Shown here: positions 8,861-40,723 of the stretch, one piece after another
Numbering within the stretch: the first letter of the stretch is position 1
How the letters are laid out: each line of letters starts with the position of its first letter
NCBI GenBank assembly: GCA_903882805.1
Contig: CAIRYK010000039.1
Location: 1 to 52,179, forward strand
Direction of reading: 5' to 3'
Origin: an uncultured Bacteroidota bacterium
GTDB taxonomy: Bacteria; Bacteroidota; Bacteroidia; Chitinophagales; Chitinophagaceae
DNA: 52,179 bases
Translations under genes and position numbers: made by a program
Notes under the pieces: model-generated
The model's input: the letters and a program-made list of their open reading frames with translations, nothing else
Database searches by the model: none
Told to the model about the DNA's origin: nothing

Positions 8861-10503
8861 TTTGTAGTAATCAGGTAATTTGTTTCCCAAGTCAACTCTT
8901 TGCCATTTACCCATTTCATTTTCTGCCATTCGCCGGTAGGCTTTACTAAAGTAGTAACTCCATTTGCACTAACCGACAAAGGCAAAGTAAACCCATCAAC
9001 AACATTTGTAAATCTGTACTTTAGTACGTTTCCCGACAAGGAATATTGCAACTTTGGTATTTTTTTTGTGCGTAGATACTGATTAAAAAACGCTTGCAGG
9101 TCCAGTCCGGTTTCTTTTGCAATATAATCTTCCACCTGTGCGGTTGTTACAGTGCCGTGGTAAAACGTGCTGTTCAGGCCGCGTAGCATGTTTCTAAAGC
9201 GTTCATCGTCATTGGTCATTTGCCTGATCATATACATTACAGCCGCGCCTTTGTTATACATGTCGCCCGTTGGTTCGTTGTTAACGCCATAATCAGGAAT
9301 GAGCGGAGCATTGTTGTATATCCTGCTCCATTCCCCCTTACAGTAGGTAGCCGCTTTTTCGTTGCCGCCTGTACAATCTATATATAGCGCCTCCATATAG
9401 TCGGTTATGCCTTCATGTATCCAGTTATCAGCCATGTCTTTAGCGGTAATATTGTTACCAAACCATTCATGGCCGCTTTCATGCACTATGATATAGTCAA
9501 ATGTCAGCCCCAGACCAGTATTCGTAGGGTCTGATCCGTTATAGCCCATACGGAAGTGATTGCCATAGGCTATAGCGCCCTGATGCTCCATACCCAGATA
9601 GGGCGACTCCACCAGCTTATAGCCATCTTCGTAGAAAGGGTATGGACCAGCCCAGTGTTCAAAGCAGTGAATCATTGGCTTTACCTGTTCAAAATGCTTT
9701 TTAGCCACCTCTAAATTAGTGCGCAACACCCAATAGTTTAAATCTAGAATTCCTTTTTCACCCTTGGTGGTATCGCTCCAGTGCACATAGTCGCCTATGT
9801 AAAATGTTGCATCATAGTTGTTTATTGGGTTGGTTACATTCCATGTATCGCCGTTTTGTCTGCCATTGCATACCACTTTTAGCTCAGGATGCTTGGGTAC
9901 TGCTATCTGCAAACTCATTCCCGCATCTGGTTCATCCCATTGAGCATCTTTACAAGGCCACCACACACTTGCGCCCAACCCCTGACACGAAACTGCCACC
10001 CAGGGCTTACCATTTTTATCTGTCTCCCAGCTTATACCTCCATCCCATGGCGGATTTACAGCGGCTCTAGGCACGCCTTCATAATTTACCGCCAATTGGT
10101 ATACCACATCCTTTTTTAAGTCGCTAAATCTGTACTTTACCCACCATACACTTCCTTCCCTCACAAAATCGGTAATTACCTCAGGTTTTGCGCCTATGGT
10201 TCCTTCGGGTCCCACTGGCATAACAGATATTGCAACTTTAGTTATGCGCAGGGGCTCTTGCAGGTCTATCTGCATTGAGTCGCATGGCTCGCCTACCACT
10301 TTAAATGAAATGGTATTTGTGCCAACGATAGTTTTTTGCTCTATATCTAAATCGGCTTTCAAATCATACCGCACCACATCCCACCATATTCTGCCTCGGC
10401 CATTGCTGCCTCTTAAGGTGTCGGCATGGCTATAAGCAAAAGTGGTATTTGCCATAAGCAAATACCACAAAGTATATATACTACAAAACAGTTTAGTCAT
10501 CAA
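8857..10503 (-). CDS. Exported M1-family metallopeptidase (copy 1)
   Basis: The 548-residue product starts with a signal peptide (cleavage near TFAYS, residue about 24) and continues with the M1 N-terminal beta domain and a thermolysin-like catalytic domain. HESGH is at 341-345 and Glu364 of NWIHEGIT is the third zinc ligand. The loop GMEHQGA at 304-310 replaces GAMEN. The C-terminal beta-sandwich is short and there is no ERAP-like helical domain. Its stop overlaps the start of copy 2, so the two are translationally coupled and follow the single-domain FKBP gene after 42 bases. Both zinc sites are intact, so both are expected to be active aminopeptidases; differences in loop sequence suggest different substrates. 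Confidence 0.93.
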   Translation of the reverse strand: MMTKLFCSIYTLWYLLMANTTFAYSHADTLRGSNGRGRIWWDVVRYDLKADLDIEQKTIVGTNTISFKVVGEPCDSMQIDLQEPLRITKVAISVMPVGPEGTIGAKPEVITDFVREGSVWWVKYRFSDLKKDVVYQLAVNYEGVPRAAVNPPWDGGISWETDKNGKPWVAVSCQGLGASVWWPCKDAQWDEPDAGMSLQIAVPKHPELKVVCNGRQNGDTWNVTNPINNYDATFYIGDYVHWSDTTKGEKGILDLNYWVLRTNLEVAKKHFEQVKPMIHCFEHWAGPYPFYEDGYKLVESPYLGMEHQGAIAYGNHFRMGYNGSDPTNTGLGLTFDYIIVHESGHEWFGNNITAKDMADNWIHEGITDYMEALYIDCTGGNEKAATYCKGEWSRIYNNAPLIPDYGVNNEPTGDMYNKGAAVMYMIRQMTNDDERFRNMLRGLNSTFYHGTVTTAQVEDYIAKETGLDLQAFFNQYLRTKKIPKLQYSLSGNVLKYRFTNVVDGFTLPLSVSANGVTTLVKPTGEWQKMKWVNGKELTWETNYLITTK

Positions 10504-10545: not shown

Positions 10546-11037
10546 TCATTCATCAACGTCGGTAACTTCCACATCAAATATAAGCACAGAAAACGGTTTT
10601 ATCGCCTTACCCGCTCCTTCCGCGCCATAAGCCAACCTTGATGGAATATAAAAAGTGGCTTTACTACCAACATTGAGCAACTGTACCCCAATATCCCAAC
10701 CCTGTATTACCTGACCCGCGCCTGCTATAAAAGTAAATGGCTCAACGTGACCAAATTTAGGATCGGTGTTCGAGTCGAAAACTTTATCATCAAGCGTTTT
10801 ACCAGTATAATTCATGGTTACCTGTTGTCCCTGCTTCACGAGTTCGCCGGTTCCTTTTTTGGTAACCAATATATACATACCAGACTCGGTCTTAACAGGC
10901 TCCACGTGGTTTTGGGCGAAGTATTCGGTAAGTTTCCCAACCTCATCCATACTTTTTACTTGTCGCCCCTGCGCAATAGCGATATTTGCCGGAAGCAAAT
11001 ACCACAAAAGACCTATAAAATAAATTATTTTACGCAT
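10546..11037 (-). CDS. Exported FKBP-type prolyl isomerase, single domain
   Basis: The 163-residue product has a signal peptide (cleavage near IAIAQG, residue about 22), a short helical lead and one FKBP domain (residues about 55-161). Key FKBP positions are kept: Tyr in MNYTGK, Phe-Asp in VFDSN, Val-Ile-Trp in QVIQGWD, the AYG Tyr, and IFDVEV at the end. It should catalyse cis-trans isomerisation of Xaa-Pro bonds in exported proteins. It is the last of three FKBP genes in a row and lies just before two exported peptidases. A strong hairpin at 11083-11133 separates it from the two-domain FKBP gene, which may mean independent transcription. Confidence 0.95.
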   Translation of the reverse strand: MRKIIYFIGLLWYLLPANIAIAQGRQVKSMDEVGKLTEYFAQNHVEPVKTESGMYILVTKKGTGELVKQGQQVTMNYTGKTLDDKVFDSNTDPKFGHVEPFTFIAGAGQVIQGWDIGVQLLNVGSKATFYIPSRLAYGAEGAGKAIKPFSVLIFDVEVTDVDE

Positions 11038-11082
11038 TTGGGATAGTTAATATTGCAATAGAATTCAATTCCATATCAAATT

Positions 11083-11133
11083 TTGCGCTGCTCAGATTAG
11101 AACTTTTAGAAAGTTCCAATCTGAGCAGCGCAA
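11083..11133. terminator. Long hairpin between two FKBP genes
   Basis: A perfect 16-base inverted repeat (11083-11098 with 11118-11133) continues inward, after one mismatch, with six more pairs (11100-11105 with 11111-11116) around a five-base loop. It lies 18 bases past the stop of the two-domain FKBP gene. The T tract downstream on the minus strand is weak (AAAATTTG), so it is a terminator, attenuator or 3' stabiliser rather than a textbook terminator. Confidence 0.6.
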
Positions 11134-11150
11134 GTATATTATTTTTAATC

Positions 11151-12497
11151 TTAATTATCTATCCCCGTAACTTCTACGTCAAATATCAACACAGCGTTTG
11201 GCGGGATCTTTCCGCCGCCGCCGCGCTCGCCATAGGCCATACCAGATGGAATATAGAAGGTGCCTTTTGAGCCTAACTGCAGCAATTGCACGCCTTCGTC
11301 CCAACCTCTGATAACGCGACCCTGACCAAGAGGGAAGGTAAACGGCTGAACATGACCCATTGCAGGGTCGGTGTTAGAGTCGAATACTTTACCGTCAAGC
11401 AACTTTCCGGTATAGTTCATTGTTACCTTCTTGCCAGGTGTGGCAGTTGGGCCAACGCCCTTCTGGCTGATTGTGTAGTACAATCCGGATGCTGTTTTTG
11501 TTGCTTTGATATTATTTTTTGCAAAATACTCCTGCAACACTTTATCATCTACTTCAGCCTGATTAACCGGAGTTTCGGCGCTAAGCACTTCAACATCAAA
11601 TACCAGGATTGAGTTAGCAGGTATCGGTGGTCTTTCTACGCTACCATATGCCAATGAAGAAGGTATGTAGAAAGTCGCTTTTGCCCCTGGTCGCAATAAT
11701 TGAAGACCTTCATCCCAACCTTTGATAACGTTTCCTTTGTTTACAACCAGTTGGAATGGTTCGGTATGATGAAAAGCAGTATCGGTATTTGAATCGAATG
11801 GCTTACCATCCATAAACTTACCGGTATAGTTTACGCTAACCTTCTGTCCTGATTTAACCATATCTCCTTTACCTTCAGTTGAAAGGACATAGTAAAGGCC
11901 TGAAGCAGTTTTGGTTGCTTTGATGTTGTTTTTGGCAAAATAGTCCTGAAGAATTTTGTCGTCAATACCATTTTGCTTTTGGGCCATTTCTTCATTATGC
12001 TTCTTTTCTTCAGCATCGGTCCTTACGCTCACCAGTTTCACATTGTATTCCACCATATCCCCTTCTTTCGTCCATGGCGGCATTGGCTGACCCAATTGCT
12101 TTAACGTATCTACCGAGAAACGGAACATAGCGCTGTCGCCGGCTACCATATTCATAAAGCCCACCATCAGGTCGCCCTTTGTTTTTGGCGAAGCAATGGT
12201 CAGCGGCACAGGCTTGTTGTTATACATTTTGCGCGAGTCGAACATGATGCTGTCTTTAATGTGCACCAATATATTCAACTCAATATGGTCGGTTACTACC
12301 GGCTTACGGGTACCGTCGCCATGTTTAATTAATTTAAATTCCAATCCGTTTTCCAGTTTGGTAAATCCGCCAACGGCATTTTTACCTTTTGCGGCAGGCG
12401 CCGCTTTCTTTGCCTGGGCAAAAGCTGCGCCGGTCAGTCCGGCAACGCCGAAAGCAAACATACCGGAGATCAAAGCCAGTTTAGGTACGCTGTTCAT
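11151..12497 (-). CDS. Exported FKBP-type prolyl isomerase, two active domains plus one degenerate
   Basis: The 448-residue product has a signal peptide (cleavage near AAFAQ, residue about 28). Residues about 45-158 form a degenerate FKBP-like domain that keeps IMFDSRKM but has lost the Tyr-Thr-Gly and VIxGW signatures. Two complete FKBP domains follow: about 200-306 (SVNYTGK, VIKGWDEG) and 335-447 (TMNYTGK, VIRGWDEG). Each is preceded by the same lead DDKxLQxYFAKNNIKATKTASGLYY, split here by x positions, which shows an internal duplication. It probably acts as a periplasmic foldase with an inactive substrate- or partner-binding domain. It sits 192 bases after the lipoprotein FKBP gene. Confidence 0.93.
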   Translation of the reverse strand: MNSVPKLALISGMFAFGVAGLTGAAFAQAKKAAPAAKGKNAVGGFTKLENGLEFKLIKHGDGTRKPVVTDHIELNILVHIKDSIMFDSRKMYNNKPVPLTIASPKTKGDLMVGFMNMVAGDSAMFRFSVDTLKQLGQPMPPWTKEGDMVEYNVKLVSVRTDAEEKKHNEEMAQKQNGIDDKILQDYFAKNNIKATKTASGLYYVLSTEGKGDMVKSGQKVSVNYTGKFMDGKPFDSNTDTAFHHTEPFQLVVNKGNVIKGWDEGLQLLRPGAKATFYIPSSLAYGSVERPPIPANSILVFDVEVLSAETPVNQAEVDDKVLQEYFAKNNIKATKTASGLYYTISQKGVGPTATPGKKVTMNYTGKLLDGKVFDSNTDPAMGHVQPFTFPLGQGRVIRGWDEGVQLLQLGSKGTFYIPSGMAYGERGGGGKIPPNAVLIFDVEVTGIDN

Positions 12498-12590
12498 TTA
12501 AAAAAGTGATTTTATGAATATTTGGTTATCAAGAGTACAATAATCGCGTAAATATCTATATAAAAGTGTAAAACGTTTCATAAAAAGCAA

Positions 12591-12671
12591 AAAGTCAAAT
12601 CCTGAAAGCAACTTTTTGTACATGATGCATATTGATATGTATTTCGTACTTGCTTATTAGGATTTGACTTT
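12591..12671. repeat. Long imperfect inverted repeat between FKBP genes
   Basis: AAAGTCAAATCCT (12591-12603) is exactly complementary to 12659-12671, and AAGCAA (12606-12611) pairs with TTGCTT (12650-12655), giving a two-part stem around an AT-rich loop of 38 bases. It lies between the stop of the FKBP lipoprotein gene and the start of the two-domain FKBP gene. It could terminate one transcript, act in the leader of the next, or be a small structured RNA. Confidence 0.5.
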
Positions 12672-12689
12672 GCGTCTATTAACATGTTA

Positions 12690-13637
12690 TTACTGTGCAG
12701 CCTGCATCTGCGGATTTCCGCCGCCGGCTTTAATGTCTAATACTTCAACATCAAAAATCAGGTTTGCGTTCGGGCCTATGCTTGGACGGCCTTGTTCGCC
12801 ATATGCCATTGATGATGGTATGTAGAAGATGGCTTTGGCGCCCTTATTCAACAACTGAACGCCTTCGTCCCAGCCTTTGATTACCTGACCAGCGCCTAAT
12901 GGGAATGTAAATACAGACTTGTGACCGAATTTCTCATCCATATTAGAATCGAAAATAGTGCCGTCAAGACCTTTACCAGTATAGTTCATGCTCACCATTT
13001 GGCCGGCTTTAGCATTTTCGCCTGTTCCTTTCTTCACAATAGTGTAGTACAGACCAGATGCTGTTTTTTCTGGCTTCAGATTGTTTTTAGCAAAATACTC
13101 CTGAAGATTTTTATCGTCTATCGGCAATTGAGCTGCAGCTTTTTCCTGCATTTTCTTCATTTCTTCAGCTTGTTTGCCTTCCATTTCTTTTTTATACTCT
13201 TCCATCGACTTGATTGCTGTAATAGCGATGGTTACGTGTATTTTTTTACCTTTCTTCATCCAGGCTGGAGCTCCCTGCATTTGAGCCGGAGGTATGCCTG
13301 CGAGGATGGTATCGCAAGATATTTCCACCACAGCGCTATCGCCTACAGACAGCATTGGGAAAATGGCCTGGAAATCGCCTTTATTACGAGAAGAGTCAAC
13401 GCGCACAACGCCTGGTCTGCCTTGTTTGCGCGTATCGTTCAATACAGTGGTGTCTACATTAGCAACCATTTCAAACTCAACGATATCGCCCATTTTAGCT
13501 GTAGCGCCCGGAGCATCTTTTACAATTTTGTATTCAATGCCATTGATCTTCTTGAAATCACCACCGTTGCTCTTACAACCGGTATTGCTAATGAAAGCTG
13601 CGCCAAGCATGGCGATCGGTAAAACCCTTTTTATCAT
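12690..13637 (-). CDS. FKBP-type prolyl isomerase lipoprotein (GldI-like position)
   Basis: I place the start at the ATG at 13637 because it gives a clean lipoprotein signal with lipobox SNTGC; the longer frame from 13685 adds 16 charged residues ahead of it. The mature protein (315 residues in all) has a degenerate FKBP-like domain (about 28-140) without the catalytic pattern, a charged helix rich in Lys and Glu (about 145-175) and one complete FKBP domain (about 195-300; MNYTGKGL, VIKGWDEG, MAYGEQG). A lipid-anchored periplasmic foldase is expected. In Flavobacterium the gliding protein GldI is an FKBP lipoprotein near an nrnA-like gene, from memory of gene order; equivalence here is an inference. 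Confidence 0.92.
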   Translation of the reverse strand: MIKRVLPIAMLGAAFISNTGCKSNGGDFKKINGIEYKIVKDAPGATAKMGDIVEFEMVANVDTTVLNDTRKQGRPGVVRVDSSRNKGDFQAIFPMLSVGDSAVVEISCDTILAGIPPAQMQGAPAWMKKGKKIHVTIAITAIKSMEEYKKEMEGKQAEEMKKMQEKAAAQLPIDDKNLQEYFAKNNLKPEKTASGLYYTIVKKGTGENAKAGQMVSMNYTGKGLDGTIFDSNMDEKFGHKSVFTFPLGAGQVIKGWDEGVQLLNKGAKAIFYIPSSMAYGEQGRPSIGPNANLIFDVEVLDIKAGGGNPQMQAAQ

Positions 13638-13712
13638 TTTGGTTCGTTTTTCGTGTGCTTTTTTGTTTTTAAAAATTTTTATCAAAAATATATAATAAGC
13701 ATTAACTGCTTA

Positions 13713-19591: not shown

Positions 19592-22500
19592 ATGCATAAA
19601 ATTTTACGTTGGTTAACGGCCGTAGTGGTCTCTTTTGCTATTTTCAGCAGTTCAGATACGAACGCCCAGTCTACTACGTTTTCTTATACAGGAGCGATGG
19701 AATCGTATACTGTGCCGGCAGGAGTAACCAAAATTGCTGTTGACGCACAAGGCGCGAAAGGCGGCGACAACCTATCATTTACCAGTGTTGGAGGAAATGG
19801 AGCAAGGGTTGTATGCGTACTTACAGTAACTCCAGGTCAGGTATTAGACATATATGTTGGCGGCAGAGGAAATGCCGGCGGATTTGGTCCGGTAATGGGT
19901 GGTTATAATGGCGGCGGTAACTCAATATTTGGTTACGGCGGCAGCGGTGGCGGCGCAAGCGATGTGCGTACTACAGGCGGAACACTGGCAAATAGATTGA
20001 TAGTTGCCGGTGGCGGCGCAGGCGCAGGCCTTAATTGCGACTTAGGTGGTGAAAATGGCGGACAAGGCGGTGGACTAACCGGTGGTAATGGTCAGGATTG
20101 CGGCAGTTATTCAGCTAATGCTTGCGGTAGCGGTGGAACAGCATCGTCAGGGGGCGCAGGCGCTACAGATGGCGGTACAGACGGGGTCTTGGGCATTGGC
20201 GGCGACGGGTTTGGTATTGGCGCAGGCGGCGGCGGCGCAGGCGGCGGCGGTTACTACGGCGGCGGCGGCGGTTACCTGGGTAGCGGCGGCGGCGGATCGT
20301 CTTTTACCGATCCTACTGATGCATCTGGCGTAACACATACTAGCGGCTACAACAGCGGAGATGGAGTTGTTATAATATGTGCTTATCCAGATGCTGGAAC
20401 AATAACAGGCACAACTACAATATGTGAAGCAGCAACTTCTACGCTTACAAATACGGCTATCGGCGGTGACTGGACAAGCAGTAATACGGCAGTTGCTACA
20501 ATAGATATTAGTACCGGCATTGTAACTGGCGTTGCGGCAGGTACAAGCATTATTACCTATTCAATTACAAATACTTGCGGAACTTCTATTACCACAGAAA
20601 CAGTTACCATCAATCCATTACCTGTTTCTGGTACTTTATCAGGTACAACTACAGTATGTACTGGTAATACAGTAGCGCTGAGTAGCACTGTAAGTGGGGG
20701 CGCATGGAGCAGCAGCGACATCGCTCTGGCGACAGTTGGCTCACTAACAGGCGTTGTTACAGGCGTAGCGGCAGGAACAACAGAAATCACCTACACTGTA
20801 ACCAATAGCTGCGGTAGCGCTATTACCACTACCGTAGTAACAGTAAATGAAAGCCCTGCTGCTATATCAGGTGTTTCTGAATCATGCGAGGCAACCTATA
20901 TCACTTATAGCGATGCGACCACTGGCGGAACATGGAGTAGCAGTAATGCATTGATGGCCAATATTGATGGTAGTGGTAATATTATTGTTGGATCCATAGG
21001 CGCAGGAACTGTGACAATAACCTACACAAGTTCAGGCTGTATTGCAACAAAAGTTTTGACTGTTAATCCGCTACCTTCAGGTTTTGGAGGAGCTTTATTT
21101 GCTTGCGTGGGTACTACAGTTACTGTTACAAATGCCTCGCCAGCTGGATATTGGAGCGGAAGCGATGATTTAATTGCTACGGTAGGTTCTACAACAGGCA
21201 ATGTAACTGGAGTTGCTGCAGGTACATTTATTCTTACCTACACGCTTCCGACAGGATGTATGCGATTCGGTCCATTTAATGTAAACGATCTCGGAACAAT
21301 ATCAGGTACCACTGAAATCTGTGAGACTACCACAACAACTCTATCTGTAACGTCAACCGGCGGCGCATGGAGCAGTAGCAACACAATAGTGGCGACCGTG
21401 GGTACAGGCTCAGGATTGTTGACTGGGGTAACTGCAGGGACTGTTATTATTTCTTATACAACTGGATGCGGATCTGCTGTAACAACTGTTACCGTGAACC
21501 CTGCGCCCAACGCTGGAACTATTTTAGGCGCGAATTCTTTATGCGCAGGAAACACTATTACTTTAACAGACGCTGCTCCCGGCGGCGACTGGACCAGTTC
21601 TAACTCAGCAATTGCAACAGTTGGCTCTGCATCTGGCATTGTTTCCGGTGTTGCTGCAGGCACCTCGATTATAAGCTATACTGTTACCAATTCTTGTGGT
21701 ACAGTATCTGCCGTACACACTGTAACAGTTAATCTTGTACCAACTGTAATAACAGGTTCAGGCGCTATATGTTCCGGACTAAATACTACATTATCATCTT
21801 TCCCAGGCGGCGGTAACTGGACCAGCAGCAACACAGGCGTGGCTACAATTGTTGCAGGCACAGGCTTCCTTACTGCAGTAGCTGCAGGTACTACAACCAT
21901 AACTTACTCACTTGGATCTGGATGTCGTCAAACAACTGTTGAAACCGTCAATCAGTCTGCGGCAGCAATAGGCGGCGCAACATCTGTTTGCGTTGGTTTT
22001 ACTGCTAATGTTACAAACGTAACACCCGGAGGTACTTGGGTTAGCGGCAATACAGGCGTAGGTACAGTAGGCTCTCTAACCGGCACAGTCACCGGCGTGG
22101 CTGCTGGCACAACAATTATTACTTACGTAATGCCTGGCGGTTGTAATGCAACAAGGACTTTCTCGGTAAATATTAATCCAACAGCCATTGCAGGTCCTAC
22201 TTCGGTATGTCAGGGCTTTACTGTTACACTTACATCCACACCAATCGGGGGCAACTGGACCAGCAGCAATACGGCTGTTGCTACAATTGGCGCGCTTATT
22301 GGAAATATGTCCGGTGTGTCGGCAGGTACAACAACTATTACATACACAACAACTGCAGGCTGTACAACTACCTCTGTTCGTACAGTTAATGTTACGCCTG
22401 CGGCAATTGTGAGCCCCAACTCAGTTTGTACCGGGTTCACAATATCAGCTACCGATGTTACACCAGGCGGTACATGGACAAGTACAAATACGGCAGTGGC

Positions 22501-25500
22501 TACTATTGGTTCGCTTTCTGGAACAATATCAGGAGTTAGCGCCGGCACTACAGTTATTAGCTACATTATGCCGACTGGTTGTAACGCAATTAAAACAGTA
22601 TCCGTAAACACTACACCAACAATTGGCGGATCAAATGCTGTGTGCGTAGGCTTTTCTACTACGCTAACATCTGCGCCAGGCGGCGGCAACTGGACTAGCA
22701 CAACTCCAGGCGTAGCAACAATAGGCGGTTTTTCTGGCATAATGAATGGCGTAGCTGTAGGTACTACAACAATTACATACACATTAATCACAGGCTGCTT
22801 TGCAACTTCGGTTAAAACGGTTAACCTGACTCCTGCAGCAATAGGCGGCGCTGGCAGCGTATGTATTGGTGCTGGCACAACACTTACCGATGCAACTGGC
22901 GGCGGTAACTGGACAAGCTCAAACACTGCTGTTGCTACAATTGGCTTTGTTAGTGGCACAGTAGCTTCTGTGTCTGTAGGAACAACAACAATTACTTATA
23001 CTGTTGGTTCTGGCTGTTTTGCTACAAGAGTATTTACTGTTAATCCTTTGCCGGCAGCAATAACAGGCACAACCGGAGTGTGCGTAGGCGCAAGCGCTAC
23101 ATTGAACGATGCCAGCGGCGGCGGTGTCTGGACCAGCAGCAACCCTGCAGTAGCTACTATAGGCGCTGGTACAGGTATTGTAAACGGTTTGGTTCCGGGT
23201 ACAACAACCATAACATATACTTTACCTACAAGCTGTATTGCTTTAACTACGGTTACTGTTAATGCTAACCCTGCTGCAATTACACCGGTAGGCGCTGTTA
23301 ATATCTGCGAAGGCTCATCTGCTACACTTTCTGATGTTAGCGCAGGCGTTTGGAGCAGCGCTAACACGGCCATTGCAACCGTATCTGGCGGTGGTGTGGT
23401 TACCGGCGTACTTGCCGGAGTTGTAAATATTTCTTACACAAATGTGGCAGGCTGCTTTGCTATCAAATCTGTAAATATCAATACACAACCTGGCGCAGTA
23501 TCTCCGGCTACAACTACTGTATGTACCGGTCTTACAGTTCCGTTTACCAACCCCACTGCCGGCGGAGCATGGACGAGCAGTAATGCACTGGTAGCTACTA
23601 TTGGCGGCTTATCTGGTATCGCTACTGGGGTAACTGTTGGTACAACAACAATGACCTACTCTATAGGTAGTTGCTATTCTACCGGCAATCTTACAGTATT
23701 ACTTTCACCTAACGCAGGCGTAATTACCGGCCCAACCGTTGGTTGCGTAGGTAGTTCGGTAACGCTTACTGACGCTGCTCCTGGCGGAGTTTGGAGCAGT
23801 AGCGATATCGCGGTGGCTGTTGTTGGTTCTACCGGTGTAGTTTTCTGCGCTGCTACTGGCACAGCGACCATTTCTTATTCTGTAACTAACAGCTGCGGAA
23901 CAGCTACAGCTACTTCGCCTATTTCATTGTTTATACCGCCTACTACTGGCGTTATTTCAGGTACATCATTGCTTTGCGCAGGTACGTTTGCCACGCTTAC
24001 TTCAACTGTTGGCGGCGGCGTTTGGAGTGTAACTAATAGCAATGCCACAATTAGTGGGGGCGGTATACTTACCGGCGTTACTCCTGGATTAGATACGGTG
24101 TTATATACCGTAACAAATGGCTGCGGCAGCTTATCTACATCTCATCCTGTTACAATAGGCGCATATCTTTCTGTTGGCGCAATTTCAGGGCCAACTAGCC
24201 TTTGTCAAGGCACAAGCATTACACTAACCGATACTTCAACAACAGGAGCGTGGAGCGCATCAGATACTATAGTGTCTGTAGTTGGCGGTGTTGTTACTGG
24301 CTTGCATCCTGGTCCGGTAACGATTTATTATATAGTTACTGCATATTGCGGATCAGCTATCGCCTCTTATCCTATCGTTGTAGATGGTCTTCCTGATACA
24401 GGTGTAATAGTAGGTCGCTCAGCAATATGCGCAGGCTTTACAGATACTTACACCAATTCTGCTCCCGGCGGTGTTTGGAGCGCAATCAATGCAAATGCTA
24501 CTATTACAAGCGGCGGCGTATTGACAGCTGTTACTCCTGGCGTAGATACAATCTTTTATACGGTGTCAAATAGTTGCGGAACATTTGCATCATCAAAGGT
24601 TGTCACTGTGGGTCCATCTTTATCTGCTGGAACAATTTCAGGTCCCGCATATGTGTGTATCGGCGCTCCTGTATATGTTACCAACCCTGTATTAGGCGGT
24701 ACCTGGAGCGCAAGCAATGGTAATGCTACTGTTATAGGTGGTAGGGTAACCGGCATTACAACTGGTGTTGATACCATTTACTATACTGTTACCAGCAGTT
24801 GCGGTTCGGCTGTGACTTCAAAAACCATCACAGTTAACGAAATACCAACTGCAGGAATTATTGTTGGTCCGGGTAGCATTTGTACTGGTTCATCTACTTT
24901 GTATACAAATGTGGTAACAGGAGGCGTATGGACTATGAGTAATCCACGCGCTTATGTAACCGGAGGTTTAGTTACACCGGTATCTGTAGGATTAGATACT
25001 ATAATTTACAGAGTTACCAATATTTGCGGTTCTTCTGCAACTTCATTACCGGTCACCATCAATGCGGCGCCTATTGCCGGTTCTATAACTGGACCAACTG
25101 CAGTATGCGTTGGCTCAACTATTACCGTTACAGATCCGGCTCCAGGCGGAGTATGGAGTGCAAGCAATACCAACGCTACAGTAACTGGCGGCGTAGTTAC
25201 CGGCGTAACCGCGGGTCCGGTAGTAATATCTTATACAGTAACCAACACTTGCGGTTCAGTATCTGCACTACTTGCTATTACAGTTAACCCTCTTCCAGAT
25301 GCCGGCGCTATCACAGGCGCTACATCTGTATGCGTTGCTGCGACAACAACATTATCAAATACTGCTGTGGGCGGTGTATGGAGCTTGAGTAATACCAATG
25401 CTACAATCACTCCAACCGGCGATGTAACAGGCGTTACCGGCGGCACAGATGTGGTAAGCTATACTGTTACCAACTCTTGCGGTGTTGCTACAACTACAAT

Positions 25501-26965
25501 GCTAATGACAATTAATAGTCTGCCATTTGCAGGTACTATCGCAGGGCCCACAAGCGTTTGCGAAGCGGCAACAATCACGCTGACCGATGCTGCTCCGGGT
25601 GGCGTATGGACTATCAGCAATCCAGCTGCAACCATTACGAGCGGCGGTATAGTAACAGGCGTATATGCAGGTTTAGATACAGTGTCCTACATAGTTACCA
25701 ATGTATGCGGAACCGCTGCTGCTACTTCAGTAATTACAATAAATCCATTGCCTAACGCAGGTTCAATATCAGGCCTGTCTAATGTATGCGAAGGCGCTAC
25801 AATTACCCTTACCGATCTTGTTCCGGGTGGATTGTGGAGTTCTGGCAGCACAAATGCTACAATCTCGTCATTAGGGCTCGTTACCGGCATTACTGCAGGT
25901 ACAGCTACTATTTCCTATTCAGTGACCAATGTGTGCGGTACTGCTTGGGTATCTACTGTAATAACAGTTGATCCATTGCCTAATGCAGGCGTTATCACTG
26001 GCGCAACCAGCGTTTGCGTGGGCGTTACTACTACGCTTGCTGACGCATCTGTAGGTGGAGTATGGAGTAGCAGAACAGGCAACACAAGCATATCTACTTC
26101 GGGCGTTGTTACCGGCCTTCTTGCAGGCGCTGATACTATAGTTTATACAGTAACTAATATTTGCGGAACTGCATTTACCACACAACCGCTTACTATAAAC
26201 CAACTGCCTAACCCCGGCGTAATTACTGGTCCTTCTGGAGTTTGTGCAGGTTCTACTATTACTCTGGTAGACACTACCGCGGGCGGCGTATGGAGCATGA
26301 GCAATCCAAGAGCACGCATCACCACCGCAGGCGTAGTTACAGGTCTTAGCGCAGGCGTAGACACAGCGTTGTACACACTTACTAATATGTGCGGTTCTAT
26401 ATCTGCAAGTAAAGTAATAGTCATCAGCCCAATACCTAATCCGGGTACTATTACAGGCGGCAATACTGTTTGCGAAGGCGGAACGCTTTTGTTATCAGAT
26501 GGCGCCGCGGGCGGTACATGGAGCAGCAGCAACACATCTGTGGCTACAGTAAACAGCTTAGGCGTAGTAACTGCGGTTGCTCCCGGTTTGGTTAACATTG
26601 CCTATACCGTTACCAACGGTTGCGGTAGCAGAGCGGCTAATCAATCGGTTTCAGTATTGTCTACCGTTGATTGCAATACTGTAAGCGTAAATACTGTTGG
26701 CGGAACAACAGATGTTAGGGTATTCCCTAACCCTAACCGTGGCGACTTCACCATAAAAGGCGAAATAGCTACTACTAACGATGATGCTACCATAGAGGTA
26801 ACTAACATGGTTGGTCAAGTAATCTATACTTTAAAAGCAAATATTGTGAATGGCGCTATCGATCAACATATTCAACTGAATGGATCGTTTGCAAACGGAA
26901 TGTACTTGCTCACAATCCGCACTGCAACAGAAAAAGCAACCTACCATTTTGTTATGGAAAAATAA
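19592..26965 (+). CDS. Giant secreted Ig-like repeat protein with T9SS sorting domain
   Basis: The 2457-residue product has a signal peptide (cleavage near DTNAQS, residue about 26), a glycine-rich head (about 28-265), 28 Ig-like repeats of about 75 residues (266-2357) and a T9SS type A sorting domain (about 2374-2457; VRVFPNPNRGDFTI to a terminal Lys). The head starts FSYTGAMESYTVPAGV and runs into low-complexity Gly-rich sequence, as in the glycine-rich domain of ALK-type receptors and many Bacteroidetes surface proteins. Each repeat resembles BIG_2-type domains: one Cys near the start, a Trp in GGxWxSSN, VATI/VTGV, then GTxxITYT and a second Cys, so each may hold one disulfide. It is probably a cell-surface stalk or adhesin. 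No ligand is predictable. Confidence 0.93.
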   Translation: MHKILRWLTAVVVSFAIFSSSDTNAQSTTFSYTGAMESYTVPAGVTKIAVDAQGAKGGDNLSFTSVGGNGARVVCVLTVTPGQVLDIYVGGRGNAGGFGPVMGGYNGGGNSIFGYGGSGGGASDVRTTGGTLANRLIVAGGGAGAGLNCDLGGENGGQGGGLTGGNGQDCGSYSANACGSGGTASSGGAGATDGGTDGVLGIGGDGFGIGAGGGGAGGGGYYGGGGGYLGSGGGGSSFTDPTDASGVTHTSGYNSGDGVVIICAYPDAGTITGTTTICEAATSTLTNTAIGGDWTSSNTAVATIDISTGIVTGVAAGTSIITYSITNTCGTSITTETVTINPLPVSGTLSGTTTVCTGNTVALSSTVSGGAWSSSDIALATVGSLTGVVTGVAAGTTEITYTVTNSCGSAITTTVVTVNESPAAISGVSESCEATYITYSDATTGGTWSSSNALMANIDGSGNIIVGSIGAGTVTITYTSSGCIATKVLTVNPLPSGFGGALFACVGTTVTVTNASPAGYWSGSDDLIATVGSTTGNVTGVAAGTFILTYTLPTGCMRFGPFNVNDLGTISGTTEICETTTTTLSVTSTGGAWSSSNTIVATVGTGSGLLTGVTAGTVIISYTTGCGSAVTTVTVNPAPNAGTILGANSLCAGNTITLTDAAPGGDWTSSNSAIATVGSASGIVSGVAAGTSIISYTVTNSCGTVSAVHTVTVNLVPTVITGSGAICSGLNTTLSSFPGGGNWTSSNTGVATIVAGTGFLTAVAAGTTTITYSLGSGCRQTTVETVNQSAAAIGGATSVCVGFTANVTNVTPGGTWVSGNTGVGTVGSLTGTVTGVAAGTTIITYVMPGGCNATRTFSVNINPTAIAGPTSVCQGFTVTLTSTPIGGNWTSSNTAVATIGALIGNMSGVSAGTTTITYTTTAGCTTTSVRTVNVTPAAIVSPNSVCTGFTISATDVTPGGTWTSTNTAVATIGSLSGTISGVSAGTTVISYIMPTGCNAIKTVSVNTTPTIGGSNAVCVGFSTTLTSAPGGGNWTSTTPGVATIGGFSGIMNGVAVGTTTITYTLITGCFATSVKTVNLTPAAIGGAGSVCIGAGTTLTDATGGGNWTSSNTAVATIGFVSGTVASVSVGTTTITYTVGSGCFATRVFTVNPLPAAITGTTGVCVGASATLNDASGGGVWTSSNPAVATIGAGTGIVNGLVPGTTTITYTLPTSCIALTTVTVNANPAAITPVGAVNICEGSSATLSDVSAGVWSSANTAIATVSGGGVVTGVLAGVVNISYTNVAGCFAIKSVNINTQPGAVSPATTTVCTGLTVPFTNPTAGGAWTSSNALVATIGGLSGIATGVTVGTTTMTYSIGSCYSTGNLTVLLSPNAGVITGPTVGCVGSSVTLTDAAPGGVWSSSDIAVAVVGSTGVVFCAATGTATISYSVTNSCGTATATSPISLFIPPTTGVISGTSLLCAGTFATLTSTVGGGVWSVTNSNATISGGGILTGVTPGLDTVLYTVTNGCGSLSTSHPVTIGAYLSVGAISGPTSLCQGTSITLTDTSTTGAWSASDTIVSVVGGVVTGLHPGPVTIYYIVTAYCGSAIASYPIVVDGLPDTGVIVGRSAICAGFTDTYTNSAPGGVWSAINANATITSGGVLTAVTPGVDTIFYTVSNSCGTFASSKVVTVGPSLSAGTISGPAYVCIGAPVYVTNPVLGGTWSASNGNATVIGGRVTGITTGVDTIYYTVTSSCGSAVTSKTITVNEIPTAGIIVGPGSICTGSSTLYTNVVTGGVWTMSNPRAYVTGGLVTPVSVGLDTIIYRVTNICGSSATSLPVTINAAPIAGSITGPTAVCVGSTITVTDPAPGGVWSASNTNATVTGGVVTGVTAGPVVISYTVTNTCGSVSALLAITVNPLPDAGAITGATSVCVAATTTLSNTAVGGVWSLSNTNATITPTGDVTGVTGGTDVVSYTVTNSCGVATTTMLMTINSLPFAGTIAGPTSVCEAATITLTDAAPGGVWTISNPAATITSGGIVTGVYAGLDTVSYIVTNVCGTAAATSVITINPLPNAGSISGLSNVCEGATITLTDLVPGGLWSSGSTNATISSLGLVTGITAGTATISYSVTNVCGTAWVSTVITVDPLPNAGVITGATSVCVGVTTTLADASVGGVWSSRTGNTSISTSGVVTGLLAGADTIVYTVTNICGTAFTTQPLTINQLPNPGVITGPSGVCAGSTITLVDTTAGGVWSMSNPRARITTAGVVTGLSAGVDTALYTLTNMCGSISASKVIVISPIPNPGTITGGNTVCEGGTLLLSDGAAGGTWSSSNTSVATVNSLGVVTAVAPGLVNIAYTVTNGCGSRAANQSVSVLSTVDCNTVSVNTVGGTTDVRVFPNPNRGDFTIKGEIATTNDDATIEVTNMVGQVIYTLKANIVNGAIDQHIQLNGSFANGMYLLTIRTATEKATYHFVMEK
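20387..26662 (+). repeat. 28 tandem Ig-like (BIG_2-type) coding repeats in two classes
   Basis: By reading the protein I count 28 consecutive units. Two classes can be told apart by the last strand: a TNSCG form of about 75-78 residues (units 1-2, 6 and 16-28) and a shorter form ending in a lone GC or SC of about 72 residues (units 3-4 and 7-15, the latter at 21740-23707). Unit 5 is intermediate. Within units 17-28 the GxxTxxN strand differs (NATI, NATV) from the VATI of units 1-16. The pattern suggests growth by duplication of blocks. Confidence 0.85.
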
Positions 26966-28770: not shown

Positions 28771-31700
28771 TTACTCTACAACGACCTTTCTTACAAACTT
28801 ATTCCTCGGGCTTTCGGCATACAATATATACACACCCTTGGCTAGGTTTAGGGTAAATTGTTCTTTTTTGTTGGTGGTGGTTTGGTAAGAAGCAATCCTT
28901 TCTCCAACGACATTGTATATGGCTATTACTACTTGTTCATCCTTATCCGAGGTAAACAGTAGTTCGAAAACGCCTTTGTTGGGGTTGGGGTTTAGGTACA
29001 GTCCCGGTGGTAACCGCAATACAGGGGTGGGGTGGCAAATTGTTTCTGATACAACAACCACTGTTTTGTTGGCAATTTCCAGTCCACAATAATTGGGAAT
29101 AGTGTAGGCAATATTGCCCGCACCGGGTTGCAGCGCTACTATTTTACCAAAGCTATCTACCCATAAATTACTACCAGCGCTTTGCCAATAACCACCGGGC
29201 AAGCTGCCTGTAAATAACGTAGTGTCGCCCACGCATAGGGTGTCTACACCCGTTATGGTTACTAACTCGGGCGATGGCATTGCGGTAGCTTTTTTATTTA
29301 CTGATCGGGTCAAATACTTATTCGAGCAGGTATAGTCTACGGTATCATTACCATTTCTCAGTCCCGTAGTTATTCCTCCTGTTACCGCGACCTTGTCTTG
29401 CCGTTTGCTCCAGGTACCGTTAAAGGGTCCTTCTGTTTGCACCAAAGTAACATTTGCGCCCTTGCATACAGTATCTGGACCGGCAAGAGGTCCAATACCC
29501 ACCTTTTTATAACTGTATTCGGTCATCACCACCGGATTGTCATCGAAGTAAATACCGGCGCGATTGTTGATTACCGTACCGTCGATTACGGTTGGTTTCG
29601 ATTGAATTTTGAAGGTAAACATACCATCGGCAAAGCCATGGTGTGAGCTATCCGGCAACATAATATTCGGAAAGTCGAATTTAGCAATTTGATAATCGCC
29701 TGCTTTCTGTATGCCCACCATCATAACCGCTGATGCCGACACTACCCTGAATGTTTCTATATCGAGTTGCGGGGGCAGCGTATCTAAAACATAAATATTG
29801 TGTGCTGTATCGTTACCGGTATTTTCAAAGTGTATGGTATAGGTTAGCTCATCGCCGGGTAGAATGTTGCCAAATGGACTAACTTCTTTGTAATTAGGGT
29901 CGTACGATGACCTTATAGTGTCTATGCGTACTATTCTATTGTTCAATGTATCTAAATCGCCTAAAAAGGGCATTACACTACAACTGGACAATACTGTATC
30001 CCCAATGGTAAGCAAAGGACCAGGAACACGTAATAATATTTTAATTAAAGTGGTAGGCGTACTATCAGTAAGATTAGGCAATAACCAAGTTACGGTATTT
30101 CCAGAAATGGAGGTACGCCATGGAGAAGAAGAACTAAATGTATACTTAGGGTTAAATTTGTAGGTAACAGTTGCGTCTTGACGATTGCAACTGTTGTTAT
30201 TAATAGCTAAAGTTACATATGCAAATGATATTGTATTACAAGCTGTACTTCTAATTGATAAATCAAAATCAGGTGAAGAACTACATGATAATCCGAAGTA
30301 TTTCACTGGATTTGGATAAGCACCGGACAAAATAGTGTCGGAAATATAACCGGTAGTTGGGCAACTAACATTTAGCCCACCGGAGTAGGAAATAGGTACG
30401 AAAGTATATACTGAACCAATAGTAGCCCCTCTGACACTGTAAAAGAAACCGGAGGTGCACGAAACTGTATCCATACGAATACCATTTGAATCTACAGCAA
30501 CCGTAAATGCTGATTCATTATAATAATCGCCTGAATCGAAAACACAGTTGCTGTTATTATCGAAATAGAATTTTACGGGCAGCGACTTACAAGAAACATG
30601 ATTATAAGTGAAAACAACAGAATCATGAATTCCTATACTATCGTATAGGATATGTTTAATAGTATATGTACCGGAAGAAGCATAATTGTGGCAATTAGTT
30701 CCTCGTCCAGGAATTGAACTAATTATTAGCGTAGTGTCGCTAAACGTACCATCTCCAAAATAGGTACGCAACCGCAATGGTTGTTCGCCACAACTTGTTA
30801 TTTTAAAAAACACCCTATTGCAGTCACTGTCGCTAATGCTTTCTGTGTGCGATGTAATGTTGTATTTAAATACATTTACCATATTAGTATAACTAACCGC
30901 GCCACTGTAGGTACAATATACCTTACATCTAAAAAAAGTTCTACTATAGACCGAATTATTAAACCTAACATCAGTGTCGTTTTTATACAAAAGATCTTCC
31001 CAAACTATAGTATCTAATGATTTTTGCCATTGGTATTTAATGCCACAACCACTTGATGCCCCTCTTGTAGATAAAAAATGCGTTGATGAATTACAGTGTT
31101 TCAAAGCGGTAGCAATACCTGCATTGGGTGTACCTATACCTCCGCAACTTACGCCTGTAACCTTGACGGTGGTAGTCGTCATTGCAGTTCCGCAACTATT
31201 AGTTACTGAGTAGGTGATTGTTGTAACGCCACCTCCTAAGCCGGTAGCTAAACCTGTTGTGGCATTTATTGATATGGCAGTTGGATTACTCGAACTCCAT
31301 ACTCCACCAGTTATCCCACCAGTATCGGTAAAAGTTGAAGATACTCCAATACATAAAAGCGTATCTCCAAAAATATTGCCGGCAAAAGGTGGCAAACAGG
31401 TATATTCTGTAATAGTTAAACTACCATCGGAATTGCAATTTTCCCCGGAAATGTAAATAGGGGAAAGACCTATTGTTGACGAAATATAGGAGGATCCACC
31501 ACCTCCCCCGCCTAAACCACTACCACCACCGCCACCATAATAACCGCCGCCACCTCCCCCGCTGCTAAATATACCTTCGCCACCAGAAAACAGTGAGCCA
31601 GATTCAGCAATACCCCAAAGAGTCGCACCTGCTCCTCCACTACTTTGAGTTCCACCTAAACCTGAACCTGTATTAACAAGATTATCCTCCACAGCGGCTA

Positions 31701-32202
31701 ACCCAACCAATCCCCCACCGGCCCCTCCCGTATACTTTATGTTTCCATATATTCCGCCGCCACCACCACCTGCAGCTATTATCACCCTATTAACAGCAGT
31801 AGTTCCACCAATTCTAATATCAGTTCCACCACCACCGCTACCTGCCTGGCCAAATGGACTTACAACACCACTTAAGCCTCCTCCGTTATAACCGCCATTA
31901 TGTAAGCGAGTACTTGAATTCAGTCCCTTTCCCCCAATGTATATATTTAGTATTTCTCCGGGAGTAACAACAAGAACGGACTTAGTTCTGCCTCCACAGC
32001 CGCCAACACTGGCAAATGCAGGAAACAAATCATCAATCCCACCCGAAGCGCCCTTAGCATCAACAGCTAAATAATGTATTCCTGCAGGTACGGTATAGGT
32101 TTGCGACGCCCCGGTATAGCTAAATGTGCGGGTTTGAGCAACGGCGTCAATAATTCCAAAACCCAACAGCACGATAATAAAAAGAAGTGATTTTGTTTTC
32201 AC
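28771..32202 (-). CDS. Secreted mosaic protein with glycine-rich head and T9SS sorting domain
   Basis: The 1143-residue product starts with a signal peptide (cleavage near DAVAQ, residue about 23) and a glycine-rich head (FSYTGASQTYTVPAGI onward, to about 268) closely resembling that of the giant repeat protein. Next come one BIG_2-like domain (about 272-350), a Cys-rich Ig-like part (about 352-445) and a PKD-like stretch (FGDGTFSDTT and SSGTYTIKHI). Further on lies a conserved domain with DPNYKEVSPFGNILPGDEL and IHFENTGNDTAHNIYVLDTL (about 770-900), of the DUF11-like or DUF7619-like type. Two more Ig-like units with the Cys/Trp pattern and the T9SS tail LYLNPNPNKGVFELLF complete it. It is probably an outer surface or released protein. 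Function unknown. Confidence 0.88.
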   Translation of the reverse strand: MKTKSLLFIIVLLGFGIIDAVAQTRTFSYTGASQTYTVPAGIHYLAVDAKGASGGIDDLFPAFASVGGCGGRTKSVLVVTPGEILNIYIGGKGLNSSTRLHNGGYNGGGLSGVVSPFGQAGSGGGGTDIRIGGTTAVNRVIIAAGGGGGGIYGNIKYTGGAGGGLVGLAAVEDNLVNTGSGLGGTQSSGGAGATLWGIAESGSLFSGGEGIFSSGGGGGGYYGGGGGSGLGGGGGGSSYISSTIGLSPIYISGENCNSDGSLTITEYTCLPPFAGNIFGDTLLCIGVSSTFTDTGGITGGVWSSSNPTAISINATTGLATGLGGGVTTITYSVTNSCGTAMTTTTVKVTGVSCGGIGTPNAGIATALKHCNSSTHFLSTRGASSGCGIKYQWQKSLDTIVWEDLLYKNDTDVRFNNSVYSRTFFRCKVYCTYSGAVSYTNMVNVFKYNITSHTESISDSDCNRVFFKITSCGEQPLRLRTYFGDGTFSDTTLIISSIPGRGTNCHNYASSGTYTIKHILYDSIGIHDSVVFTYNHVSCKSLPVKFYFDNNSNCVFDSGDYYNESAFTVAVDSNGIRMDTVSCTSGFFYSVRGATIGSVYTFVPISYSGGLNVSCPTTGYISDTILSGAYPNPVKYFGLSCSSSPDFDLSIRSTACNTISFAYVTLAINNNSCNRQDATVTYKFNPKYTFSSSSPWRTSISGNTVTWLLPNLTDSTPTTLIKILLRVPGPLLTIGDTVLSSCSVMPFLGDLDTLNNRIVRIDTIRSSYDPNYKEVSPFGNILPGDELTYTIHFENTGNDTAHNIYVLDTLPPQLDIETFRVVSASAVMMVGIQKAGDYQIAKFDFPNIMLPDSSHHGFADGMFTFKIQSKPTVIDGTVINNRAGIYFDDNPVVMTEYSYKKVGIGPLAGPDTVCKGANVTLVQTEGPFNGTWSKRQDKVAVTGGITTGLRNGNDTVDYTCSNKYLTRSVNKKATAMPSPELVTITGVDTLCVGDTTLFTGSLPGGYWQSAGSNLWVDSFGKIVALQPGAGNIAYTIPNYCGLEIANKTVVVVSETICHPTPVLRLPPGLYLNPNPNKGVFELLFTSDKDEQVVIAIYNVVGERIASYQTTTNKKEQFTLNLAKGVYILYAESPRNKFVRKVVVE

Positions 32203-37810: not shown

Positions 37811-37852
37811 TAATAGAAAAAGGATCGGCGAAAACCGATCCTTTTTCTATTA
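37811..37852. terminator. Bidirectional terminator after the desaturase
   Basis: A perfect 18-base stem (37811-37828 with 37835-37852) and a six-base loop. A5 on the left foot and T5 on the right foot allow function on both strands; the neighbouring gene on the right converges. Confidence 0.85.
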
Positions 37853-38728: not shown

Positions 38729-39703
38729 ATGAAGGAAATAAGGTTTATAGACCTTTTTTGTGGCGTTGGCGGCTTCAGGGTAGCTATGGAGCAGAGTTGT
38801 CGCGACCAAGGCTTGATACCTATGGGTGTTTTTGCCTCCGATATAGATCCCAACTGCAGGAAGAGTTACGAAAATAATTTTGGCGAAGCGCCAGCCGGAG
38901 ATATCACTTTAGTTGATCCAACCACTATTCCAGATCACGATGTGCTTATGGGAGGTTTCCCATGCCAGCCCTTTAGTATTATAGGGCAAATGAAGGGCTT
39001 TGAAGATACCAGAGGTACGTTATTTTTTTACATTGCCAACATATTGAAAACAAAACAGCCTCAGGCGTTTATTTTAGAGAACGTAAAACAACTGGTAGGC
39101 CACAATGGAGGACAAACGCTGAAAGTAATTATCAAAACACTGGAGGAATTGGGTTATCACGTGCGACACACCGTACTCAATGCGCTCAACTACGGACTGC
39201 CTCAGAAGAGAGAACGCATTATTATCGTTGGACACAAATCGAGTTCCAATTTTACATTTCCCGACCCGGTGAAACCCTTTCGTCCTCTGGCTGAGGTTCT
39301 TGATAAAATCGTAGATGAAAAATATTACGCTTCAGACTATATAGTACAGAAACGAAAGGAAGCGCATCAATCGCCGCACGCGATAGGTATATGGCACGAA
39401 AACAAGTCGGGCAATATTGCCTCTTACCCCTATTCATGTGCTCTAAGATCGGGAGCGAGTTACAATTACCTGCTGGTAAATGGAGAACGGAGGCTTACGC
39501 CGCGTGAAATGTTTAGGTTGCAGGGCTTTCCCGATAGCTACAAAATAACCACGCACGACGGCCATGCCCGCAAGCAAGCAGGTAATGCAGTGCCTGTAAA
39601 CCTCATAAAAGCCGTTATTGACCAACTATTACCACTTTTATCCAAGGAAAATGCCAAGTTAACTGCCGCTAGCGCAGAGTTAAGTAATCCTATTGTCCAA
39701 TAA
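38729..39703 (+). CDS. DNA (cytosine-5) methyltransferase
   Basis: From the ATG at 38729 the product is 324 residues. The C5-methylase motifs are in order: I (DLFCGVGGFR, SAM binding), IV (GGFPCQPFS with catalytic Cys79), VI (ENVKQL), VIII (QKRERI), a short target-recognition region, then IX (RRLTPREMFRLQGFP) and X (GNAVP). It transfers a methyl group from SAM to cytosine C5 in a specific sequence; the recognition site cannot be read from the protein. A vsr gene follows after a few bases and no restriction endonuclease is seen nearby, so it looks like a Dcm-type solitary methylase or a remnant of a restriction-modification unit. Confidence 0.95.
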   Translation: MKEIRFIDLFCGVGGFRVAMEQSCRDQGLIPMGVFASDIDPNCRKSYENNFGEAPAGDITLVDPTTIPDHDVLMGGFPCQPFSIIGQMKGFEDTRGTLFFYIANILKTKQPQAFILENVKQLVGHNGGQTLKVIIKTLEELGYHVRHTVLNALNYGLPQKRERIIIVGHKSSSNFTFPDPVKPFRPLAEVLDKIVDEKYYASDYIVQKRKEAHQSPHAIGIWHENKSGNIASYPYSCALRSGASYNYLLVNGERRLTPREMFRLQGFPDSYKITTHDGHARKQAGNAVPVNLIKAVIDQLLPLLSKENAKLTAASAELSNPIVQ

Positions 39704-39714
39704 ATATGCTCATT

Positions 39715-40164
39715 ATGGCCGACACATTTTCGAAACAGGAACGTAGCCAAATAATGAGTAAGGTGAAAAGCAATAAGAACAAATCTACCGAGCTCAAACT
39801 CATTGCATTTTTTAAAAGCCACCACATAATAGGGTGGCGTAGAAACAGGAAGATTTTCGGCAAACCCGACTTTGTTTTCCCATCTTCAAGAATAGCGGTA
39901 TTCGTTGACGGATGCTTCTGGCACGGACATACTTGTAGAAACGTGACGCCAGCCAGCAATAAAGATTACTGGACTGCTAAAATAGAAAGAAATAAAAAAC
40001 GCGATGCCTTGGTAAGCGATAACCTTACCGCCAAAAACTGGAAAGTAATAAGGCTGTGGGAATGCAGTTTGAAAAAGCAAGATATTCTGGAAAATGAACT
40101 TAGTATGCTGCTTGTCAACGCATCGCAAATAAAAAGCAATATCCAAGAACGCGAAAAAAGTTAG
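39715..40164 (+). CDS. vsr: Very short patch repair endonuclease Vsr
   Basis: The 149-residue product (an ATG nine bases earlier at 39706 is also possible) has all Vsr hallmarks. These are SQIMSKVKSNKNKSTEL at the start, the catalytic Asp52 in FGKPDFVF, the zinc-site run GCFWHGHTC (67-74) and the later WECSL that supplies another Cys ligand. Vsr nicks DNA 5' of the T in T:G mismatches that arise when 5-methylcytosine deaminates. It is paired with the methyltransferase, as Vsr usually is. Its last four bases overlap the end of the sigma-like gene on the other strand. Confidence 0.95.
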   Translation: MADTFSKQERSQIMSKVKSNKNKSTELKLIAFFKSHHIIGWRRNRKIFGKPDFVFPSSRIAVFVDGCFWHGHTCRNVTPASNKDYWTAKIERNKKRDALVSDNLTAKNWKVIRLWECSLKKQDILENELSMLLVNASQIKSNIQEREKS

Positions 40165-40532
40165 CTATGCGACAAACCCTCTAAAATACTTTGCCTAATC
40201 CACCAGTTGGCATATGCCATAACTAATCTGTCTTCTAACAATCTTTTTACACATTGTATCAGCCCGGCTTTACCCAAATCTATACATTGCGCCAGGCTGG
40301 CATCTTGGCTTACCAGCCTGGCAATAGACACTATTTGATTCATCCATATCTCCTGCAGCCGATAAATTGCTGCTTCATTGCCAGCTCGAACGCCACTAAA
40401 AATACTTGACAACTCCTCCTGCTCTGGAAATACCACATTATTCAAAAATGATAGGGCCGCTTCCAATTTTTGGTCAATCGCTTGCTGCACAGAAAACGTT
40501 GTTTTGTTTGGGTAGATGTTAAGTTGTCTCAT
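40161..40532 (-). CDS. Divergent sigma-70-like protein limited to regions 1.2-2.4
   Basis: I start at the ATG at 40532 because MRQLNIYPNK mirrors the MRQLKI opening of Bacteroidetes primary sigma factors; the longer frame begins at 40568. The 123 residues align with sigma region 1.2 (about 40-60, SSIFSGVRAGNEAAIYRLQE), then 2.1-2.2 (QIVSIARL, GKAGLIQCVKRL; the latter is the core-binding helix) and 2.4 (YANWWIRQSILEGL; the -10-binding helix). It stops right there, without regions 3 and 4. Region 2.3 looks about two residues shorter than usual. It might bind core polymerase or -10 DNA alone, act as a competitor of the primary sigma, or be decaying. The homology is clear; the function is unknown. 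Confidence 0.75.
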   Translation of the reverse strand: MRQLNIYPNKTTFSVQQAIDQKLEAALSFLNNVVFPEQEELSSIFSGVRAGNEAAIYRLQEIWMNQIVSIARLVSQDASLAQCIDLGKAGLIQCVKRLLEDRLVMAYANWWIRQSILEGLSHS

Positions 40533-40723
40533 AAGAAGCAATATCGAGTATTTATTGCAATTACGCATTTGGATTAATCTGTCAAACTACTTATTTACTT
40601 AAAAATTGCATTACGCTACAAATATCGGTACCACCTACGCCAAATGTGGCTGTTATAACATATTACAATGACTTGGATCACATACGTTTGTTTGTAAATC
40701 GTTTGCGTATGGATACCGATACT

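Follow-up and report, generated by a model that had tools for sequence, protein, structure and literature searches.

The window, by which we mean the whole stretch of 52,179 nucleotides that was analysed (contig CAIRYK010000039.1 of an uncultured member of the Chitinophagaceae), contains on its minus strand a short open reading frame (ORF) whose product resembles regions 1.2 to 2.4 of a primary sigma factor and then stops. A sequence-only reading had described 123 residues with an MRQL opening, core motifs and a helix YANWWIRQSIL before the stop codon; all of these were present in the translation, which holds MRQL, VRAGNEAAIYRL, GKAGLIQCVKRL and YANWWIRQSIL; only EGLSHS separates the last of these from the stop. 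The two-residue shortening that it had placed in region 2.3 was real by alignment, and alignment to full-length sigmas also revealed a one-residue gap before region 2.2. The ORF and its parts were as follows:

40161..40532, minus strand: sigma-2-like ORF, 123 residues, MRQL start, TAA stop
40161..40568, minus strand: the same ORF from an in-frame ATG 36 bases upstream, 135 aa; this is the start predicted for its relative P0001
40515..40532, minus strand: MRQLNI opening, like the MRQLKI of Bacteroidota RpoD (by alignment)
40500..40514, minus strand: 5-residue insertion (residues 7-11) after MRQLNI, relative to aligned full-length sigmas
40248..40295, minus strand: region 2.2 segment, residues 80-95, with changed core-docking columns (DLINEGN to QCIDLGK)
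40215..40247, minus strand: region 2.3 segment, residues 96-106, shortened by two residues, with 2 of 12 conserved columns kept
40182..40214, minus strand: region 2.4 core YANWWIRQSIL, residues 107-117, with 10 of 11 residues identical to both sigmas of the same genome

The codon-use score of the ORF (0.071) was weakly gene-like and exceeded that of 5 of the 29 genes in the window. A 15-base direct repeat (14/15) flanked the ORF at 40129-40143 and 40531-40545, and is of a kind expected by chance.

Retention of conserved sigma columns

The ORF was compared with 98 sigmas, comprising 23 cellular rows (19 distinct) and 75 rows from viral contigs (67 distinct). A column was considered conserved where at least 95% of cellular rows agreed, which gave 91 columns; 6 of 105 loci, having ORFs shorter than 230 aa (five viral-contig matches and G073), were dropped before counting. 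Retention in the ORF, and the minimum and median proportions among viral-contig rows, were:

Region 1.1/1.2: ORF 12/30; viral-contig rows 0.23 and 0.47
Region 2.1: ORF 3/14; viral-contig rows 0.64 and 0.79
Region 2.2: ORF 8/19; viral-contig rows 0.53 and 0.79
Region 2.3: ORF 2/12; viral-contig rows 0.50 and 0.75
Region 2.4: ORF 11/16; viral-contig rows 0.56 and 0.69

Thus, regions 2.1, 2.2 and 2.3 of the ORF each fell below every one of the 75 viral-contig rows and, when pooled, kept only 13 of 45 columns, against at least 0.64 in each of those rows. Regions 1.2 and 2.4, by contrast, resembled a divergent but ordinary sigma, and retention in region 2.4 differed from that in all other regions combined (Fisher test, p = 0.0099).

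In what we take to be the E. coli numbering, the ORF keeps Y430, W433, W434 and Q437; Y425 was lost in the two-residue deletion, V replaces F427 and A replaces T429, while D403, Q406, E407 and N409 are all changed. Since W433, W434 and Q437 face the DNA, their retention would not be explained by folding alone. Passages of PMC4598750 describe region 2.2 as the part that chiefly touches the beta-prime coiled coil, and regions 2.3-2.4 as contacting the -10 element; according to part of PMC4496690, strand separation depends on Y425, Y430, W433 and W434, the -12 pair is the concern of Q437, and T429 acts as a fulcrum. By alignment, the polymerase-docking face is rewritten while the promoter-reading helix is kept. 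With docking and melting columns lost and regions 3 and 4 lacking, the ORF falls outside the definition of a functional sigma factor.

Homology and predicted fold

At 34% identity, the ORF matched two RpoD-like genes of its own genome, one with E = 4.2e-11 and the other, over ORF residues 1-121, with E = 2.7e-10, and was colinear nearly end to end with regions 1.2-2.4 of these RpoD-type sigmas. RpoS was matched among solved structures (E = 8.7e-6). The sigma-70 identity initially proposed was therefore borne out, and on the evidence of these matches the ORF is a genuine sigma-70 homologue and a relative of RpoD-type factors. Profile searches divided, however: the NCBIfam models for RpoS (3.2e-7) and RpoD (1.1e-6) were significant, both far below the curated cut-offs of those families, but a Pfam search of the ORF gave no match even at E = 10. 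A search of its own genome with the Sigma70_r2 profile (E = 1) returned 18 places, the location of the ORF not being among them; this failure was the first sign of a damaged region 2 signature.

Both RpoD-like genes were open at full length (332 and 301 codons), and the ORF is therefore an extra copy rather than a replacement. Its dN relative to the two was 0.84 and 0.76, with dS saturated. In a tree the ORF and P0001 occupied one branch together, so long that their placement was uninformative. With Bacteroidota RpoD (group 1/2) the ORF shares the MRQL opening, colinearity across regions 1.2-2.4, the predicted sigma-2 fold and a nearly identical -10 helix; it differs in lacking regions 3-4, in having lost most of the 2.1-2.3 signature, in its identity of about 34%, and in its 5-residue insertion and two short deletions. 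A model built from a deep alignment returned a sigma-2 domain with a pLDDT of 82, a value that leans on 37 full-length sigma segments; the model from the ORF and P0001 only was poor (pLDDT 49.8). By prediction, the ORF adopts a sigma-2 fold.

Truncation and the search for regions 3 and 4

The C-terminus falls a few residues past helix 2.4, and regions 3 and 4 are absent from the protein. The DNA beyond its end belongs to a convergent vsr gene. In the same genome, Sigma70_r3 was found only in the two RpoD-like genes, while Sigma70_r4 was found at 25 places, two of them in frames shorter than 190 aa. One of these was a DNA-binding domain of the LuxR type, next to a receiver domain; the other was below cut-off and overlapped a 113-aa ORF that by eye resembled a helix-turn-helix repressor. 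No separate sigma-4 partner was recognised in the genome using the Pfam region 3 and 4 profiles, which an unrecognisable partner would escape. P0001 has the same start and ends in the same last residues, so the short form predates the split of the two sequences. Together, the vsr gene downstream, the lack of partner regions and P0001 uphold the earlier claim that the protein ends after region 2.4 and was not cut short by a nearby frameshift.

At L087 523-1191 (G000:C42), receiver and LuxR-type DNA-binding domains occupied two successive ORFs 12 bases apart; this pair is a split or frameshifted NarL-type response regulator.

Selection or decay

When the sigma genes of the same genome were mutated neutrally to 34% identity, none of 4000 runs avoided a stop codon throughout, and only 7 of 4000 were stop-free at the end. 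A second simulation took six viral-contig sigmas, the most divergent among them, as starting points and was halted at 13 of 45 columns of regions 2.1-2.3; of its 6000 runs, 3 stayed clear of stops throughout and 20 were stop-free at the end. Because neutral decay almost always meets a stop, selection probably held the frame open after the sigma signature and function were lost. The suggestion that the ORF might be a decaying paralogue was consequently weakened for decay all the way to its present state, but stood for drift that began recently.

Distribution

P0001 showed 95% BLAST identity over the 123-residue query, with 6 differences in 135; its cluster has 3 member sequences, possibly including the ORF. 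The search for conserved short homologues that had been proposed thus produced one near-identical relative and no wider family. A search of 99 genomes of congeners and relatives at E = 1e-3 gave matches in 96; among the matches listed, those besides the ORF itself lay in open frames of at least 251 aa, except for one of 179 aa. The latter (G073) was rejected, its sequence looking like that of an ordinary RpoD which stops early. Genome contigs and viral contigs contained no relative at close identity, and phage records had no match. Four plasmid records matched (29-33% identity); three of them carry a sigma-factor annotation and the fourth has none. Nothing significant emerged from PHROGs, nor anything for the ORF protein from PADLOC, and a literature search with a few fixed phrases found no report of a sigma-2-only protein in Bacteroidota.

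Among the viral contigs, the sigma genes of L119, L128, L132, L140 and L147 matched most of the RpoD query yet were interrupted in table 11; recoded phage stop codons are a possible cause.

Genomic neighbourhood

The genes adjacent to the ORF were:

38732-40164, plus strand: dcm-vsr pair, convergent with the ORF
39706-40164, plus strand: vsr, its last 4 bases overlapping the end of the ORF
42386-40724, minus strand: ArsR-MFS pair, on the same strand as the ORF and upstream of it

The vsr gene had been placed downstream on the opposite strand, and this was confirmed. Close relatives of the window MFS gene were Bacteroidota, several labelled Ferruginibacter, Flavihumibacter or Chitinophagaceae; in 36 MFS loci from genome contigs, neither vsr nor a sigma-like gene occurred in the flanking stretches examined. 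In a sister lineage, vsr (84%) and MFS (77%) lie on contigs of equal length (26166), presumably one and the same. No sigma-like protein from that lineage appeared in a search of 5.8 billion clustered proteins, so the gene there is probably missing or very different. The vsr search of 394 family genomes found six at E = 1e-45 (window gene included), without the sister locus among them; at E = 1e-52, only the window gene was found among 394 relatives, and again not the sister locus. A different gene context for P0001 was considered and dropped, since clustering of the protein database at 90% identity could hide vsr or MFS neighbours.

The dcm and vsr genes of the window adjoin without a restriction gene between them, and the pair may have lost one. 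In the congener G001 (L083 6493-8600), dcm and vsr have a 250-aa ORF between them, and there is no sigma-like gene; judged by position only, the 250-aa ORF is a candidate restriction enzyme. Elsewhere in the window, an inverted repeat with perfect 18-base arms around a 6-base loop (37811-37852) lay between a convergent desaturase gene and a 231-aa ORF, and is probably a two-way terminator. Three successive ORFs at 10546-13685 (minus), which contain similar repeated blocks, resembled by eye FKBP-type peptidyl-prolyl isomerases, and two adjacent, overlapping ORFs at 7148-10503 (minus) looked like paralogous metallopeptidases (HESGHEWFGNN), also by eye. Large, repetitive, secreted-looking proteins at 19592-26965 (plus) and 28771-32202 (minus) had a glycine-rich N-terminal part in common (FSYTGA...YTVPAG).

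Discussion

The ORF probably encodes a real protein that does something other than the job of an ordinary sigma factor. The explanation that we favour, although we rate it at slightly less than an even chance, is that it is a C-terminally truncated and strongly diverged relative of primary sigmas, a lineage-restricted, stand-alone sigma-2 domain with a putative action through its 2.4 face and without a normal holoenzyme. Several observations weigh against this. The ORF is a near-orphan, with P0001 its one match (from 10 candidates) among the 5.8 billion clustered proteins; a second short form was not seen among the matches listed for 35 genus genomes, a family search at E = 1e-12 returned 1 of 394 genomes, the ORF itself, and an order search returned 3 of 396, of which the two besides the ORF lie in frames that are open for 292 and 290 aa. 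Conserved peptide patterns, including one within regions 2.3-2.4, had been used to select the comparison sigmas, which biased their retention upward, as did keeping the best 80 comparison rows in the larger scan; only 67 of the 75 viral-contig rows were distinct. Region 2.4 did not differ significantly from region 2.2 alone (p = 0.18), and P0001 differs from the ORF at a kept conserved column (I92L). Promoter-like sites for the ORF were at chance level (3 found, 3.1 expected), and among 45 spurious ORFs with 100 codons or more, 2 equalled or exceeded its codon score. It may be, too, that the ancestor had diverged further than every row used, and neutral drift to 85% identity was stop-free in 684 of 4000 runs, with which recent drift is compatible.

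Much of this would suit a non-functional relic, that is, a divergent sigma paralogue, possibly of mobile-element origin, that lost its 3' half and is drifting without yet having met a stop. The narrow distribution, the lost docking and melting residues, the lack of a Pfam match or a convincing promoter, and a sister lineage that has vsr and MFS but in which the gene is probably absent or too diverged, are all consistent with such a history. Against it stand the scarcity of stop-free frames in both simulations, the exposed residues kept in region 2.4, and a relative with identical start and end. We consider a relic a serious contender that falls close behind the favoured explanation, and the action proposed for the sigma-2-like protein is held with modest confidence.

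Other explanations are much less probable. The stand-alone sigma-2 domain with its -10 helix would suit one half of a two-subunit sigma, another gene supplying sigma-4, for which passages of PMC8103513 on Bacillus SigO-RsoA provide a precedent; the confinement of Sigma70_r3 to RpoD-like genes, the LuxR-type and repressor-like nature of the short-frame Sigma70_r4 matches and the loss of docking columns make this improbable, although a partner whose region 4 is unrecognisable would have escaped. The sequence-only reading had suggested that the ORF competes with the housekeeping sigma for core polymerase or drives promoters that need no -35 contact, and the predicted fold and -10 helix do favour core binding, with either competition with RpoD or initiation at such promoters. 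Both suggestions lost ground, since the columns for docking (2.1-2.2) and melting (2.3) were the most rewritten, falling below all comparison rows, and region 2.2 is the main beta-prime coiled coil contact in the relevant part of PMC4598750; core binding is unlikely, if marginally less so than a two-subunit sigma. That the ORF is spurious, or its resemblance due to chance, would agree with its modest codon score and the Pfam result, but the E-value of 4.2e-11 with near end-to-end colinearity, the existence of P0001 and the fold model reduce this to a negligible probability.

Were the ORF a diverged stand-alone sigma-2 domain, as favoured here, it would be translated and would have been under selection after its sigma signature was lost. 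Alone, it would be unable to serve as a promoter-specificity factor, because poor docking on the beta-prime coiled coil and poor melting are expected. If active, it would most probably work through the exposed Y-A-x-W-W-I-R-Q face of region 2.4; the putative target is either -10-like DNA, forked or single-stranded, or some factor able to recognise the face. No normal holoenzyme would be formed, and in this way the protein may modulate how the real RpoD initiates; the use of this face and the modulation of RpoD are the weakest steps. The most specific version is doubtful: that the protein, derived from the housekeeping sigma, gave up docking but retained the helix for the upstream half of the -10 element, and that it tunes RpoD initiation by recognising, outside a holoenzyme, either promoter DNA or a partner of this helix.

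Two known systems offer parallels. Bacillus SigO-RsoA also encodes a sigma-2-like domain as its own small protein, according to sections of PMC8103513, although a table in PMC10141391 assigns the SigO and RsoA domains the other way round; the ORF, likened to RsoA by description and not by sequence, differs in its lost docking columns and in that no sigma-4 partner was found with the Pfam region 3 and 4 profiles. PhyR, a sigma-factor mimic that titrates NepR, has in common with the ORF a sigma-like fold and degenerate core-binding parts, to judge from portions of PMC8103513 and PMC4598750. It resembles ECF sigmas, however, combines sigma-2 and sigma-4 parts with a receiver domain, and also has degenerate promoter contacts, whereas the ORF protein has no receiver domain and keeps the 2.4 helix.

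Docking, melting and -10 reading are coupled within the sigma-2 domain, the most conserved part of a sigma factor. If the ORF is only a relic, it matters little. If the favoured explanation is true, it would add to the few regulators, RsoA and PhyR among them, that derive from sigma factors without being sigma factors themselves, and a natural sigma-2-only protein in which selection seems to have released docking and melting but held on to the -10 helix would constitute a natural experiment that separates these functions.
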